Part shown: one piece after another, positions 20,561 to 50,958 of the stretch
Position numbering within the stretch: position 1 is the stretch's first letter
Layout: each line of letters opens with the position of its first letter
Origin: Actinorugispora endophytica
GTDB lineage: Bacteria; Actinomycetota; Actinomycetes; Streptosporangiales; Streptosporangiaceae
DNA: 64,000 nucleotides
Assembly: GCF_004363075.1 (NCBI RefSeq)
Contig: NZ_SNYN01000001.1
Span: 473,938-537,937 of the forward strand
Reading direction: 5' to 3'
Notes under the pieces: model-generated
What the model was told of the DNA's origin: nothing
Database searches by the model: none
What the model saw: only the letters and a program-made list of their open reading frames with translations
Program-made: the position numbers and the translations under genes

Positions 20561-21556
20561 TTGCGCAGGAACAAGCAGCTGCCCCACATCAAGATCATCT
20601 CGCACCGCGGCGCGTCGGGCCACCGGCCCGAGCACACCCTCTCCTCCTACACGCTGGGGGCCCGCTACGGCGGCGACTTCATCGAGGTCGACCTGGTCTC
20701 CACCAAGGACGGGCACCTGATCGCCCGGCACGAGCCGGAGATCGGTCACACCACCGACGTGGCGTCGCGCCCGGAGTTCGCCGACCGCCGCGGCACCCGG
20801 ACCATCGACGGGGTCGAGGTCACCGGTTTCTTCGCCGAGGACTTCACGCTGGAGGAGATCCGGACGCTGCGCGCGGTGGAGCGGCTGCCCTCGGTGCGCC
20901 CGGACAACGCCGCGCACGACGGCGACTACCCGGTCCCCACCCTGGTGGAAATCATCGAGCTGGCCAAGGCGCTCACCAGGGAGTTGGGGCGTCCCATCGG
21001 GGTCTACCCCGAGACCAAGCACCCCGCCCACCACGCCTCGGCCGGCCTCGGCCTGGAGCCGCCGCTGATCCGGACCCTGCGCGAGCACGGCCTGGCCGGG
21101 CCGGAGCCCGAGGTACCGGTGTTCCTGCAGTCCTTCGAGCCCGAGAGCCTGAAGAAGCTGGGCGAACTCCGGCTGCCGCGGGTCCTCCTGATCGGCGCCG
21201 AGGAGCGGTGGGCGCCCTTCACCACCCGCGAGGGGCTGGCCGGGGTGGCGGCCTTCGCCGACGCGATCGGACCCGACAAGTCACTGGTCGTCGCCGTCAC
21301 CGAGGACGGCGAGCTGGGCGAGCCGACCTCCCTGGTCGCCGACGCGCACGACGCGGGCCTGCTCGTGCACCCGTACACCTTCCGCAGCGAGAACCACTTC
21401 CTGCCCGAGTCGCTGCGGTCGGGCGGCGGCCCGACCGCCTACGGGGCCTTCGCCGCCGAGTACGAGGCGTTCTTCGCCGCGGGCGTGGACGGCGTCTTCA
21501 CCGACCACTCCCGTCACGCCTTCCTCGCCCGCGAGATCTTCCTCGACGAGGGCTGA
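20561..21556 (+). CDS. Glycerophosphodiester phosphodiesterase
   Basis: 331 residues from a TTG start with no strong ribosome-binding site. Hydrolyses glycerophosphodiesters to glycerol-3-phosphate and an alcohol. The GDPD core is clear: IISHRGASGHRPEHTLSSY (catalytic histidine/arginine), EVDLVSTKDGHLIARHEPEI (metal ligands and second histidine) and the C-terminal GVDGVFTDHSRHAF. No signal peptide is visible, so it is probably cytoplasmic. Its last 27 codons belong to a tandemly duplicated segment and reappear as a fragment at 22483. Confidence 0.92.
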   Translation: MRRNKQLPHIKIISHRGASGHRPEHTLSSYTLGARYGGDFIEVDLVSTKDGHLIARHEPEIGHTTDVASRPEFADRRGTRTIDGVEVTGFFAEDFTLEEIRTLRAVERLPSVRPDNAAHDGDYPVPTLVEIIELAKALTRELGRPIGVYPETKHPAHHASAGLGLEPPLIRTLREHGLAGPEPEVPVFLQSFEPESLKKLGELRLPRVLLIGAEERWAPFTTREGLAGVAAFADAIGPDKSLVVAVTEDGELGEPTSLVADAHDAGLLVHPYTFRSENHFLPESLRSGGGPTAYGAFAAEYEAFFAAGVDGVFTDHSRHAFLAREIFLDEG

Positions 21557-21565
21557 TCCGGGAGA

Positions 21566-21589
21566 GCGGCGCGGTCGGGGCCGCGCCGC
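21566..21589 (+). terminator. Terminator after the GDPD gene (also in unit B at 22573-22596)
   Basis: Perfect 9 bp GC stem (GCGGCGCGG with CCGCGCCGC) around a 6-base loop, 10 bp after the stop. The same hairpin recurs 1,007 bp downstream. Confidence 0.65.
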
Positions 21590-21669
21590 GACCGGGAGAA
21601 CGGCCTCCCCGCCTCTGCGGACCGTGTGAAACGGCCGGTGCTTCTTTATCCTGTGGACGACGACGGGCA

Positions 21670-21700
21670 GGCCGGAAGCGATGCGGTTACACTTCCGGCC
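21670..21700 (+). promoter_or_regulatory. Leader hairpin before Uma2 gene A (identical copy at 22677-22707)
   Basis: GGCCGGAAG (21670-21678) pairs perfectly with CTTCCGGCC (21692-21700) over a 13-base loop. The right arm ends one base before CAGGAGGTGA, the ribosome-binding site. A weak promoter-like pair (GTGAAA..TTATCC) lies just upstream. The hairpin is identical in both units, as if conserved for control of expression. Confidence 0.45.
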
Positions 21701-21719
21701 CAGGAGGTGACGTAGCGAA

Positions 21720-22331
21720 ATGAGTCTCGCTGTGATGGAAACCGTTTCCGGTGGCGACACGCCTGATTCCAACCCCTTGCTGCGCGCCTGGCAGGAGCTG
21801 GACGTGCCCGAAGGCTGGCGGGCCGAGATCATCGATGGAGAAATCAGGCTGATGACGCCGCCTTCGAGACCGCACAACTTCATCGCGGCGAAAGTGTCCC
21901 GGGCGCTGCTGCGCTCCATTCCCGAGACATGGGACGTCTACCAGACACTGGGGCTGCGTATCGACTCACTGGGAGACCTCTACGTACCGGATCTCGTCGT
22001 CATCCCCGACAGCGCCATGCTGGATGACGGCGCGGACCTCCCGTGCTCCGCCGAGGACGCGCTCCTGGTGGTCGAGATCGTTTCCAAGAGCAACGGCGAC
22101 CGTGATCGCAGGACGAAGCTGCGGGGATACGCGCACGGCTTGGTCCCGCTGTACCTCCTGGTCGACCGGTGGGCCGAGGAAGGGCCTTCGGTGACCCTGT
22201 ACGAGGATCCGGAGAACGGGCGGTACCGCAGGCACACCACCGTGCCCTTCGGCGCCAAGGCCAGCCTTCCCTCTCCGTTCGGACTGGAACTCGACACCTC
22301 GGACTTCCCCGACGCGAAGCAGTGGAAGTAG
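21720..22331 (+). CDS. Uma2-family (DUF820) putative PD-(D/E)XK endonuclease, copy A
   Basis: 203 residues. Uma2/DUF820 proteins have a restriction-endonuclease-like fold; their biological role is unproven. The PD motif is VPDLVVIP (about residues 90-97), the E-x-K region is LLVVEIVSKSN (about 113-123), and the conserved RRTKLRGYA helix follows. It starts with ATG after AGGAGGTGACGTAGCGAA. It shares MSLAVMET and RAWQELDVP with copy B, but overall identity is roughly 55-60% by eye, far below that of the flanking DNA. Gene order is GDPD, Uma2, then a convergent beta-propeller fragment. Confidence 0.82.
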   Translation: MSLAVMETVSGGDTPDSNPLLRAWQELDVPEGWRAEIIDGEIRLMTPPSRPHNFIAAKVSRALLRSIPETWDVYQTLGLRIDSLGDLYVPDLVVIPDSAMLDDGADLPCSAEDALLVVEIVSKSNGDRDRRTKLRGYAHGLVPLYLLVDRWAEEGPSVTLYEDPENGRYRRHTTVPFGAKASLPSPFGLELDTSDFPDAKQWK

Positions 22332-22334
22332 TCC

Positions 22335-22481
22335 TCAGCCGCTGCGGGCCAGCCAGGTGATGGCGAGGACGACCACCAGCGCGACGCCGACGCCGCCGAG
22401 GATGAGGAGGCCCGCTCCGCCGTCCTCGCGGGGTCCGGACGCCTCTCCCCCGCCGGAAGGCCGCGACTCCTCCTCGCTCGG
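22335..22481 (-). pseudogene. Duplicated 3' fragment of the membrane-anchored propeller gene at 23339
   Basis: In the minus frame this reads SGGGEASGPREDGG, a membrane segment (LLILGGVGVALVVVLAITWL) and ARSG-stop, the same C-terminus as the intact gene ending at 23339. Upstream sequence is missing because it joins GDPD sequence at about 22482. It is a by-product of the tandem duplication. Confidence 0.85.
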
Positions 22482-22482
22482 A

Positions 22483-22563
22483 GCCGCGGGCGTGGACGGT
22501 GTCTTCACCGACCACTCCCGCCACGCCTTCCTCGCCCGCGAGGTCTTCCTCGACGAGGGCTGA
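22483..22563 (+). pseudogene. Duplicated 3' fragment of the GDPD gene
   Basis: Encodes AAGVDGVFTDHSRHAFLAREVFLDEG-stop, matching the end of the phosphodiesterase at 20561-21556 apart from one I-to-V change. No start or upstream coding sequence is attached. It marks the duplication junction. Confidence 0.88.
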
Positions 22564-22726
22564 CCCGGGAGAGCGGCGCGGTCGGGGCCGCGCCGCGACC
22601 GGGAGAACGGCCTCCCCGCCTCTGCGGACCGTGTGAAACGGCCGGTGCTTCTTTATCCTGTGGACGACGACGGGCAGGCCGGAAGCGATGCGGTTACACT
22701 TCCGGCCCAGGAGGTGACGTAGCGAA

Positions 22727-23335
22727 ATGAGTCTCGCTGTGATGGAAACCGGTCCCCATTCCATGGAACCCGATCCCGAGGACGTGCTGCGCGCCTGGCA
22801 GGAGCTGGACGTGCCCGACGGATGGCGGGCCGAGATCATCGATCCTGGAAAGATCAGCCTGATGTCGCCCCCCTCGAACCCGCACAACTTCATCGCCGAA
22901 CTGGTTCAGGACGCTTTCCACCCGGCCAAGCCAGACAAGACCGGTCTCTATCAGACCGTAGGGCTGTGGATCGCCGTCACCGGTCGGCTCTTCATCCCTG
23001 ACCTCGCTGTGATCCCCCGGTCCATCGTGCGGGAGTCCAAGGCACCGCTGGCGGCACACGAGGCCCTCATCGTCGTGGAGATCACTTCCAGGGACAACGC
23101 CACCGACGACCGCGTCAAGAAACTCGCCGGATACGCGCACGGCATGGTTCCGCTCTACCTGCTGGTCGACGCCTGGGACCCGACAGGCCCGTCGGTGACC
23201 CTGTACGAGCAGCCCCACAACGGCCGGTACGACGTGCACCACACGGTTTCGTTCGGCAGGGCCATCACTGTTCCGGCACCGTTCGACATCGAACTGGACA
23301 CCTCGGAGTTCCCCCCCGGTTCGGAGTGGAAGTAG
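22727..23335 (+). CDS. Uma2-family (DUF820) putative endonuclease, copy B
   Basis: 202 residues. Same family and leader as copy A. PD is in IPDLAVIP and the acidic strand is LIVVEITSRDN, where the lysine of copy A's EIVSKS is an arginine; the downstream KKLAGYAHG helix is kept. The C-terminus IELDTSEFPPGSEWK parallels LELDTSDFPDAKQWK in copy A. The K-to-R change near the active site may alter or abolish activity, while the second conserved lysine remains. The stop is 3 bp from the stop of the convergent propeller gene. Confidence 0.82.
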   Translation: MSLAVMETGPHSMEPDPEDVLRAWQELDVPDGWRAEIIDPGKISLMSPPSNPHNFIAELVQDAFHPAKPDKTGLYQTVGLWIAVTGRLFIPDLAVIPRSIVRESKAPLAAHEALIVVEITSRDNATDDRVKKLAGYAHGMVPLYLLVDAWDPTGPSVTLYEQPHNGRYDVHHTVSFGRAITVPAPFDIELDTSEFPPGSEWK

Positions 23336-23338
23336 CCC

Positions 23339-24415
23339 TCAGCCGCTGCGGGCCAGCCAGGTGATGGCGAGGACGACCACCAGCGCGACGCCGACGCCGC
23401 CGAGGATGAGGAGGCCCGCTCCGCCGTCCTCGCGGGGTCCGGACGCCTCTCCCCCGCCGGAAGGCCGCGACTCCTCCTCGCTCGGGGCGGCCGGGGCGGG
23501 CTCCGTCTCCGGGAGCGGAACGCGCCACACCGGGCTCCCCACCCCCTCGGTCCCCGCCAGCAGCGCGGTCCCGTCCCGGGTGTAGGCCAGCGACTCGCCC
23601 TGGTCGCTCTCCGGGAGCCCCAGACGGGCCGTGCTCCGCCCGGGGACCCCCTCGGAGGCGTCGTAGACCGCCACGCTCCAGTAGGTCCGGATCGCGTAGT
23701 ACCCGCCGTCCGGCGAGAACGACGCGTCAGTGGCGAACAGCGGGGCCGGGCCGACTCTGGTGAGGGTGTTCACGGCCTCGGGGTCGAGCCGCTCGGGCGC
23801 GGCGTAGAGCCCGCCCGCGAGCTCCTTGCTGACGACGTAGAGCCGGTTGTCGCGCGGGTCCACGAGGATGCCCTCGGCGTCGCGGCCTCCGTCGGCGTAG
23901 GCGAGGGTGAACGCGGTCGCCGTGACCGTCTGGTCGACGAGGTCGCGGGGCTCCGGCAGGCGGTACACGCGCACGTCCGGCCAGCCGCCCTGGTAGTTGT
24001 CGCCGATGTCCGCGACGTAGACCGCCGGCTCGCCCGCGTCGTCGGCCCCGACCGCGACGGCCTCCCAGTCCCGGGCCTCCACCCCGTCCCCGGCCAGCCG
24101 GACCGTGGCCACCGTCTCGCCCCGCTCGTCGACGGCGTAGACGTCCGGGCCGTACTGCGGGCCGCTGTCGTTGTGCGTCCAGTACACGCCCTCGTGCCGT
24201 ACCGAGGCCGCCATCCCGCTGGACTCGGCGATCCGCGGGTCGGTGAGGGCGAAGGCGGTCTCGGTGCCCTCGGGGACCCGCTCGCCCGCCGACGCCCCGG
24301 GGGACTCCGCCGGTTCCCGGTCCTGCGCGGGGAGTGCCCCGGCGCCCAGCAGCACGGGAAGGATCATGGCCGCAACCGTCAACCGCACGCGGACGCCTGG
24401 TGTCATGGTCCACAT
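23339..24415 (-). CDS. Secreted, membrane-anchored beta-propeller-like protein
   Basis: 358 residues. An N-terminal signal segment ([21 protein letters not shown]), a beta-propeller-like body (ESSGMAASVRHEGVYWTHNDSGPQYGPDVYAVDERGETVATVRLAG; DWEAVAVGADDAGEPAVYVADIGDN; DAEGILVDPRDNRLYVVSKE) and a C-terminal membrane anchor with basic tail (LLILGGVGVALVVVLAITWLARSG). The DWEAVAV..YVADIGDN pattern occurs in a widespread group of actinobacterial extracellular proteins of unknown function related to phytase-like/esterase-like propellers. An alternative ATG lies at 24406. Its last 49 codons are duplicated at 22335. Confidence 0.75.
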   Translation of the reverse strand: MWTMTPGVRVRLTVAAMILPVLLGAGALPAQDREPAESPGASAGERVPEGTETAFALTDPRIAESSGMAASVRHEGVYWTHNDSGPQYGPDVYAVDERGETVATVRLAGDGVEARDWEAVAVGADDAGEPAVYVADIGDNYQGGWPDVRVYRLPEPRDLVDQTVTATAFTLAYADGGRDAEGILVDPRDNRLYVVSKELAGGLYAAPERLDPEAVNTLTRVGPAPLFATDASFSPDGGYYAIRTYWSVAVYDASEGVPGRSTARLGLPESDQGESLAYTRDGTALLAGTEGVGSPVWRVPLPETEPAPAAPSEEESRPSGGGEASGPREDGGAGLLILGGVGVALVVVLAITWLARSG

Positions 24416-50340: not shown

Positions 50341-50958
50341 ATGGCAGTCATGACTATTGGCGAGACACGCGCACCGCACCGGCGGTTGACCTCGGAGGAC
50401 CTGCTGCGGATGCCGGACGACGGTCGCCGGTACGAGCTGGTCGAAGGGCGGCTTGACGTGTCGCCCGCACCGGTGTTCCTGCACACCCTCATCGAGTCCC
50501 GGTTGACCATCTATCTGGGCGGTATCGCGCCGGACGACCTCATGGTGCTGTCCGGCCCGGGGATCGACTTCGACGCCGACCGCGCCCACCACCGCATCCC
50601 CGACCTCGCGGTCATCCACTCTGCGGACGCCGAGCGGCCCTACCTCACCAGGCCGCCGCTGCTGGCCGTCGAGGTGGTCTCGCCCGAGAGCGTGTTCCGC
50701 GACCACCACACCAAGCTGCGCGAGTACGCCGGGTTCGGCATCGGGTCGTACTGGATCGTCAGCCCCTCGACCGACAAGCCCGGCATCGCCGAGTTCCGCC
50801 TCGACGGCGACCGCTACGTCGAGACCGCCCAGGTGTTCGGCGAGGACGTCTTCACCACCGACGCGCCCTTCCCGGTCCGGATCGTCCCGCACTGGCTGCT
50901 GGCGGACGGCCCCTGGAAGAAGCGCATCGGCGGCGAGGAAGCGGACTCAGACTCCTAG
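50341..50958 (+). CDS. Uma2-family (DUF820) putative endonuclease, copy C
   Basis: 205 residues. More typical Uma2 architecture than copies A and B: LTSEDLLRMPDDGRRYELVEGRLDVSPAP at the N-terminus, PD in HRIPDLAVIHSAD, E-x-x-S-P-x-S in LLAVEVVSPES, then TKLREYAGFGIGSYWIV. ACGGGAGGCAAT precedes the ATG. It is only distantly similar to copies A and B, so it is not a recent duplicate. It interrupts the otsA-otsB neighbourhood and overlaps the convergent otsB by 12 bp at the 3' ends. Confidence 0.88.
   Translation: MAVMTIGETRAPHRRLTSEDLLRMPDDGRRYELVEGRLDVSPAPVFLHTLIESRLTIYLGGIAPDDLMVLSGPGIDFDADRAHHRIPDLAVIHSADAERPYLTRPPLLAVEVVSPESVFRDHHTKLREYAGFGIGSYWIVSPSTDKPGIAEFRLDGDRYVETAQVFGEDVFTTDAPFPVRIVPHWLLADGPWKKRIGGEEADSDS

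Follow-up and report, generated by a model that had tools for sequence, protein, structure and literature searches.

Two Uma2 lineages in tandem between near-identical flanks in Actinorugispora endophytica: probable allele exchange at one chromosomal slot

How can two neighboring genes differ widely when the DNA on either side of them is almost the same? A locus in Actinorugispora endophytica, analyzed here within a window of 64,000 nucleotides (the whole stretch of DNA studied), raises this question. The slot in question is the gap between two convergent genes, one for glycerophosphodiester phosphodiesterase (GDPD) and one termed propeller-like (Table 1); the latter label comes from a reading made from the letters alone (the sequence-only reading), and the gene has only a sub-threshold match to the phytase-like family PF13449 (E 0.0091; 16.4 bits against a cut-off of 27.6). 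That reading had described two direct units of about 1.0 kb with near-identical flanks, each enclosing a Uma2 gene, and our analysis bears this out: one direct repeat covers 274 nt (at 21476 and 22483, 98% alike, spacing 1007) and a second covers 238 nt, partly the end of the open reading frame (ORF) (at 22267 and 23271, 89% alike, spacing 1004).

Table 1. Features of the slot and its neighbors (positions in the window)
Feature	Position	Strand	Remarks
GDPD gene, intact, left neighbor	20561..21556	+	Pfam PF03009, E 2e-37; synteny kept in relatives
Unit A	21476..22482	+	GDPD 3' end, leader, UmaA, propeller 3' tail fragment
UmaA leader with palindrome (21670-21700) and ribosome-binding site	21557..21719	+	162/163 positions match unit B
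UmaA, Uma2 family, 203 aa	21720..22331	+	PF05685, E 4.9e-25
Propeller-gene 3' end fragment in unit A	22332..22482	-	149 nt equal to the intact gene's end
Tandem junction	22482..22483	.	propeller tail joined to GDPD tail, no long microhomology
Unit B	22483..23485/6	+	GDPD-tail fragment (22483-22563), leader, UmaB, propeller 3' end
UmaB, Uma2 family, 202 aa, other allelic lineage	22727..23335	+	PF05685, E 4.2e-20
Propeller-like gene, intact, right neighbor	23339..24415	-	synteny kept in relatives

The left flanks of the two units (21476-21743 in unit A) differ at 4 of 268 nt (21493, 21514, 21536, and 21557). From 21558 to 21744 there is no difference at all, so that the identity, previously noted for the leader and the first six codons, in fact runs through eight whole codons and one base. 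The right flank, given earlier as 147 bp in common, has 149 identical nt, as the units differ there at two positions only: 22332, which adjoins the stop codon, and 22482, the base at the junction. The flank differences are clustered: all 4 fall within the first 82 positions, with 0 in the other 333 (p about 0.0014, a post hoc value that leaves out the difference at 22332). UmaA begins 163 nt after the GDPD gene; the 395 nt between UmaA and UmaB consist of flank fragments and leader, the GDPD copy of unit B being a fragment fused to the propeller-tail fragment.

Both enclosed proteins belong to the Uma2 family (PF05685, PD-(D/E)XK superfamily), with scores of 88.4 (UmaA) and 72.4 bits (UmaB) against a curated cut-off of 27. 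A predicted model of UmaA (pLDDT 82.8) has the fold of solved Uma2/DUF820-like proteins, its seven PDB matches at E<=0.001 all being chains of 9y1l, 3ot2, 1wdj, and 6okh. Among 18 aligned rows including both copies, E36, E119, and K133 (UmaA numbering) are invariant and D91 is nearly so; we take these conserved acidic residues and the lysine of the core to be catalytic, and UmaA and UmaB are predicted nucleases. The PADLOC candidate models PDC-S03 match both (best E 1.4e-17 for UmaA and 1.2e-13 for UmaB); as these are candidate models, the match is no proof of a defense role. No small partner gene, as in a type II toxin-antitoxin pair, was seen beside UmaA and UmaB among the listed frames of at least 80 aa. 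The proteins are identical at 118 of 201 positions (58.7%), within the 55-60% estimated earlier by eye. Divergence between the two genes is dN 0.37 and dS 0.59 (ratio 0.63) by NG86 and dN 0.30 and dS 2.34 by YN00, and a codon model over eight Uma2 genes gave an omega of about 0.12; selection on these genes is purifying. Strong diversifying selection on the coding part, one of three explanations offered by the sequence-only reading, is not supported, given that omega and the divergence of synonymous sites as well. GC3 is 83% in the Uma2 genes versus 95.5-97.3% in SerC, GDPD, and the propeller gene, and 8/8 Uma2 sequences lie below the GDPD gene of their own genome. As a sign of foreign origin this counts little, because 6 of 49 heuristically called window genes (a list that includes doubtful calls) are lower still and low expression could explain it.

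The two genes did not diverge in the present genome. A UmaA-type Uma2 gene stands singly in the same slot of Thermobifida cellulosilytica (G345, locus L049), and a UmaB-type gene stands singly there in another species with the same genus code (G344). In the tree, which left out matches of fewer than 110 aligned residues and the four additional Uma2 loci present in the window's genome, UmaA groups with G345 (support 100/99) and UmaB with G344 (100/100), the latter pair then joining G023 (100/98). Placing UmaA and UmaB in one clade is rejected (delta lnL 95.9, p-AU 5.7e-6), and a simple recent duplication is ruled out by the tree. Four-way comparison of UmaA, UmaB, G345, and G344 gave informative sites of 25 genus to 0 allele in the left flank, 11 genus to 90 allele (7 crossed) in the ORF from codon 9, and 40 genus to 0 allele in the right flank. 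The ORF signal thus conflicts with the flank signal, and the switch falls at the ORF edges. The same holds for G345 and G344 alone (GDPD tail 94%, leader 78%, and right flank 82% alike; ORF 61%). ORF identity is 80% between UmaA and G345 and 79% between UmaB and G344, which gives the two splits a similar apparent age. Over its first eight codons, the A-type gene of G345, which is frameshifted, is only 62-67% like the other three.

Of the three earlier explanations, the evidence most favors replacement of alleles by recombination in the flanks: each type is found alone at this slot in a species of a neighboring genus, and the switch in signal coincides with the edges of the ORF. Its main rival is gene conversion confined to the flanks of an old tandem pair. 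We consider it reasonably probable that an allelic Uma2 cassette has been exchanged through its flanks at this slot and that the two types were recently placed in tandem here. The slot would hold a one-gene cassette of at least two long-separated allelic lineages, with related lineages carrying A, B, another Uma2 gene, other sequence, or nothing. Homologous recombination in the shared leader and 3' flank would swap the coding part, roughly codon 9 through the stop, in one piece, so that species history would show in the flanks and allele history in the ORF. The tandem may stem from a recent illegitimate event that joined a copy bearing A to one bearing B; alternatively, a tandem duplication may have been followed by replacement of one ORF. 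Either way, the result would resemble a bacterial heterozygote. The comparison set has one genome per species, and the alternation of A and B is accordingly one seen between species. It may persist because Uma2 nucleases differ in the foreign DNA against which they help.

The state of the slot in relatives bears on this explanation and on its strongest competitor. Among 53 relatives' loci with both neighbors placed, 7 hold one Uma2 gene, 18 have a gap of less than 300 bp (one of them with a B-type remnant), and 28 hold other sequence; none of the 53 holds two. The slot is volatile. In one relative (L153) the gap contains a transposase-like gene (PF13359). A mobile element carrying the pair was considered for the window itself and rejected, no recombinase having been recognized on inspection of the reading frames between the GDPD and propeller genes.

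The competitor is that A and B were duplicated before the genera split and have since stayed as a tandem pair, with conversion homogenizing the flanks alone, the ORFs having become too different to recombine. In other lineages, recombination between the repeats on either side would have removed one of the copies. The parallel crossing of the genus split by A and B, each with an about equally old counterpart in the neighboring genus, is what such a pair would also lead one to expect, and to that extent it speaks against the exchange explanation. Between the genomes G170 (tandem) and G173 (single), where leader exchange is also seen, the difference is one additional ORF whose leader is a copy, so that the tandem may be a recurrent and older state. 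It also suits an ancient pair that a collapse by way of the repeats would be scarless. Against this, the 7 single and 0 double occurrences would need many independent losses, and on both sides recent conversion would have had to hold the functionless GDPD- and propeller-tail fragments near-identical. The gaps of all 7 single-copy loci show at most short matches to their own GDPD or propeller tail (15-38 nt, in 4 of 7 loci); the window, as a control, gives 81 and 156 nt. We judge an ancient tandem pair unlikely, if well short of negligible.

That two strains or two loci were wrongly joined is very unlikely. With 44 contigs the genome is a draft, and short-read assembly can be misled by repeats of 190-270 nt, but the junction lies outside the repeat and inside a 941-kb contig, the 30-mer across it has a single occurrence in the window and none in 100 shuffles, the listed completeness is 100 with contamination 0.04, and similar tandems were assembled in G170 and G154. 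Recent duplication with strong diversifying selection acting on either coding region, or on the two together, would account for near-identical flanks around differing ORFs, and the NG86 ratio of the pair is above that of most Uma2 pairs, but the low omega over eight genes, a dS of 0.59 or more against 5 differences in about 415 flank positions, and the closer relative that each gene has in another species make it hardly credible.

The pattern recurs at other Uma2 loci. UmaA relatives at E <= 1e-10 occur in 259 of 341 genomes of the host's family, and among the matches listed we compared 91 Uma2 genes from 38 genomes rather than from all 259, having dropped matches shorter than 350 nt or with less than 110 nt upstream. 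These gave 165 syntenic pairs, of which 29 close ones were realigned with MAFFT and 27 kept after 2 with short proteins were dropped. Under thresholds set after seeing the data (GDPD >= 92.5%, upstream >= 85%, downstream >= 80%, a 100-nt stretch of ORF < 70%), 7 of the 27 pairs combine kept flanks with a collapsed ORF, and the other 20 have no stretch below 70%. The sequence-only reading had named equal divergence of flanks and genes in related genomes as a refutation; in the 7 pairs the ORF is far more diverged than flanks and control genes. The 66 available identities of SerC, GDPD, and the propeller gene over the 27 pairs were all at least 0.92; GDPD had itself served in choosing the pairs, and among the 7 the propeller gene could be compared in only 2. 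The 7 pairs have dS 0.39-0.88 and dN/dS 0.19-0.61, and the ordinary pairs have dS 0.07-0.46, overlapping their low end; one of the 7 (G158/G147) has flanks only 85/87% alike.

Site patterns at these loci are of more than one kind. In the quartet G171/G169/G172/G170, the ORF has 49 allele, 5 species, and 9 crossed sites and the upstream and downstream flanks have 21 species, 5 allele, and 7 crossed, with 2 allele and 0 species sites in the leader. For G165/G145/G166 the ORF itself gives a mixed signal, 43 allele and 24 species sites when G136 is the fourth row and 23 and 19 when it is G163. Near-identical leaders were found in three of four adjacent tandem pairs, which are those noticed rather than a census: the window, G170 (leaders 95% alike, proteins 65% identical), and G154 (92% and 60%); the fourth, G264, showed no leader similarity. 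In looser pairs 3-5 kb apart, the upstream regions are 79% (G280) and 83% (G281) alike versus 69% and 71% for the ORFs.

More tentatively, Uma2 genes in the host's actinobacterial family could be a dispersed group of nuclease loci that swap alleles and whose variants are kept by frequency-dependent selection, a reading we hold to be possible rather than probable. Leader and 3' flank would serve as recombination handles, the ORF being swapped as a block or as a half-ORF mosaic; alleles would be kept across species and genera, as expected of a specificity gene in defense or competition, and the window would show a rare state, two alleles captured in one chromosome.

In-place xenologous gene displacement, or allele replacement through conserved flanks, is a general concept. 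The locus resembles it in the conflict between ORF and flank signals and in break points at the gene edges, and differs in having both versions in tandem and in showing the pattern at several loci of one gene family. Type I restriction hsdS genes and polymorphic toxin cassettes are swappable specificity genes with constant flanks and exchangeable coding blocks. Unlike these, the UmaA/UmaB pair has no recombinase, methylase, or immunity partner recognized in the frames beside it; the Uma2 loci are like them in their constant flanks and exchangeable coding block and in a half-ORF change seen in G152/G135. The evidence for in-place exchange of the ORF, with old alleles at one slot and two of them side by side here, suggests selection for variety, as in specificity or defense genes. 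A heading of PMC1274311 uses the term "xenologous gene displacement," and a passage of the same 2005 paper calls the function of Uma2, a widespread predicted nuclease family, unknown; the evidence for allele exchange offers a direct handle on that function. Uma2 (COG4636, DUF820, PF05685) is described in part of a 2009 paper (PMC2701414) as forming "cassettes of paralogous genes" in cyanobacteria. UmaA and UmaB are members of this family, of which tandem paralogs are a habit in that account. Unlike the cyanobacterial cassettes as described there, they are no local duplicate pair, each matching an allele that stands alone at the same slot in another species, and the unit of change is the ORF.

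The shared leader was also scanned for RNA and promoter signals. What had been called a terminator is a palindrome rich in G+C that lacks a T-run, and a terminator scan gave no terminator-like site on the + strand. No Rfam family matched at the gathering threshold, and no sigma-70 consensus promoter was found, in 21400-23600. The leader hairpin proposed earlier is present as a palindrome; its single-sequence fold is no better than that of shuffles (z -0.05), but the stem has some covariation support across 20 distinct leaders.

Alignment of the tandem Uma2 units A and B bore out the sequence-only reading that near-identical flanks surround diverged open reading frames (ORFs). The left flank, comprising the GDPD 3' end, the leader, and the first eight codons, differs at 4 of 268 nt, with zero differences across positions 21558 to 21744; the right flank is identical over 149 nt, with a single difference at 22332, adjoining the stop codon; and the proteins share 118 of 201 residues. 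The shared start also stood, with identity reaching eight codons rather than the six first reported. At the junction 22482/22483, the propeller-gene tail of unit A is fused to the GDPD-tail fragment of unit B, and the sequence there contains no long microhomology.

Features of the tandem Uma2 units (window positions)
Feature	Position	Length	Remarks
Unit A	21476-22482		Direct repeat, tandem with unit B
Unit B	22483-23485/6		Direct repeat, tandem with unit A
UmaA	21720-22331	203 aa	Uma2 by Pfam
UmaB	22727-23335	202 aa	Uma2 by Pfam
Palindromic leader	21670-21700 and 22677-22707		Just 5' of ribosome-binding site

The simplest account, toward which we lean, is that ORFs at this locus are replaced through the leader and 3' flank, combined with one recent joining: homologous recombination through these segments would swap the ORF, and the joining would have set A and B in tandem. 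When these two were aligned with the genes of Thermobifida cellulosilytica (G345) and G344, informative sites in codon 9 to the end favored allele pairing (90 allele, 11 genus, and 7 crossed), whereas the left and right flanks gave 25 and 40 sites for genus pairing and 0 for allele pairing, which can hardly score there because A and B are near-identical. The independent half of this comparison, G345 versus G344, gave identities of 94% (GDPD tail), 78% (leader), 82% (right flank), and 61% (ORF). Codons 1 to 8 hold 0 informative sites, and there G345 is only 62 to 67% like the other three rows.

Phylogenetic analysis placed the two genes in separate allelic lineages. In a Uma2 tree of 50 rows (the T. 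cellulosilytica gene entered twice), UmaA grouped with G345/L049 (support, 100/99), then G175 (96/83), then G170/G173 (98/84), and UmaB grouped with G344 (100/100), then G023 (100/98). Constraining A and B to one clade cost 95.9 log units (p-AU, 5.7e-6). The tree of SerC, GDPD, and propeller genes placed the window's genome with G176 (91/93), beside G344 to G347, which carry the T. cellulosilytica genus code and whose genus we read as Thermobifida from that species' record. G345 and G344 thus share one genus code and carry A-type and B-type Uma2, respectively, at the same slot, the gap between the convergent GDPD and propeller genes. ORF identity is 80% for A-G345 and 79% for B-G344, so neither lineage looks younger than the divergence from the T. 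cellulosilytica genus.

The collection holds one genome of the window's genus, its own, and a GDPD match at E <= 1e-100 was found in 73 of 341 genomes of the wider family. We compared 68 relatives' loci around GDPD (one genome contributed two); both neighbors were placed in 53, and in the other 15 no propeller gene was located within the stretch read, in some cases because of a contig end. A single Uma2 gene occupies 7 of the 53 slots (G345, G344, G023, G010, G175, G170, and G173), and two Uma2 genes occur at the slot in none of the 68 loci. The gap is under 300 bp in 18, including the 105-bp gap of G347 (L133), an apparent deletion scar in which, as read, the final codons of a B-type Uma2 and a portion of the leader survive. 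The remaining 28 slots contain 520 to 4232 bp of other sequence; among 18 chosen reading frames scanned from such gaps, 10 had no match and 8 had matches (kinase-like, glyoxalase-like, DUF5753 regulator, transposase-like, dehydrogenase, and CBM96). In G023 (L089), an aminoglycoside/hydroxyurea-kinase-like frame (PF04655) lies between GDPD and Uma2, and G018 (L093) has a similar frame. A frameshift near codon 80 splits the T. cellulosilytica A-type gene; therefore, this allele seems to be decaying.

The main rival, which we consider rather unlikely, is an ancient tandem pair whose flanks were kept alike by conversion, with reciprocal loss elsewhere. Tandem and single Uma2 states do interconvert, since the difference between G170 and G173 is an additional ORF whose leader is a copy; however, no window-like tandem leftovers were found in the gaps of the seven single-copy loci, only hits of 15 to 38 nt in four of them. 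ORF replacement and conversion with loss may both be acting. The strong diversifying selection on the coding part that had also been proposed was not supported by a codon model of eight Uma2 genes (omega about 0.12, versus about 0.07 for GDPD); the A-B pair alone gave a ratio of 0.63 by NG86 and 0.13 by YN00, with synonymous sites far apart in both, and the difference is mostly old constrained divergence rather than an adaptive burst, with single selected sites possible.

Similar patterns recur at other Uma2 loci. Among the matches listed, 91 Uma2 genes with leaders from 38 genomes gave 165 syntenic between-genome pairs, 27 of them between closely related species whose flanks are conserved and whose proteins are full length; the 66 SerC, GDPD, and propeller comparisons available across these 27 were each at least 0.92. 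Among these listed matches, an ORF window fell below 70% identity in 7 of the 27 pairs (dS, 0.39 to 0.88; dN/dS, 0.19 to 0.61; dS in the other 20, 0.07 to 0.46), which by our count amount to four clear events plus a fifth, weaker one (G158/G147, flanks just 85/87%), with G129 common to three pairs. In G152/G135, the change is confined to the first half of the ORF (69, 61, and 55% and then 93, 94, and 98%). A second quartet (G171/G169/G172/G170) repeats the switch of signal between ORF (49 allele, 5 species, and 9 crossed) and upstream plus downstream sequence (21 species, 5 allele, and 7 crossed; leader, 2 allele). In a third (G165/G145/G166), the ORF was mixed, at 43:24 or 23:19 allele:species depending on the fourth row. 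Leader and protein identities in adjacent tandem pairs were 100 and 59% in the window, 95 and 65% in G170, and 92 and 60% in G154; the leader match was absent between the copies in G264. For comparison, between-genome pairs with protein identity of 0.55 to 0.65 (n = 378) had a median leader identity of 0.69, with 4.8% above 0.8.

The leader palindrome may be a regulatory hairpin or operator. Across 20 distinct Uma2 leaders, an eight-pair stem of our choosing had 81% of cells paired, a covariation score above 500/500 shuffles, and 6 pairs changed on both sides (reached by 13/500 shuffles), a control weakened by the relatedness of the leaders. In the RNAalifold consensus, the paired columns coincide only in part with those of this stem.

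The model predicted for UmaA finds its matches among solved Uma2/DUF820-like structures, and UmaA and UmaB each match the candidate-defense model PDC-S03; we infer a nuclease role in defense or competition. An earlier study describes Uma2 as a likely solo toxin, "cyanobacteria-specific" and mostly in cassettes of paralogous genes (PMC2701414). The accessible part of the Uma2/DUF820 literature, mostly outside subscription journals, yielded no description of in-place Uma2 allele replacement, and of the papers listed on trans-species polymorphism in bacteria, judged by titles, none concerned a bacterial gene family. A further Uma2-like match lies at 50395-50865 (+ strand) within a 460-residue open frame. 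GC3 is 83% in both Uma2 genes and 95.5 to 97.3% in SerC, GDPD, and propeller genes, and it was below that of the same genome's GDPD in all eight Uma2 sequences compared.
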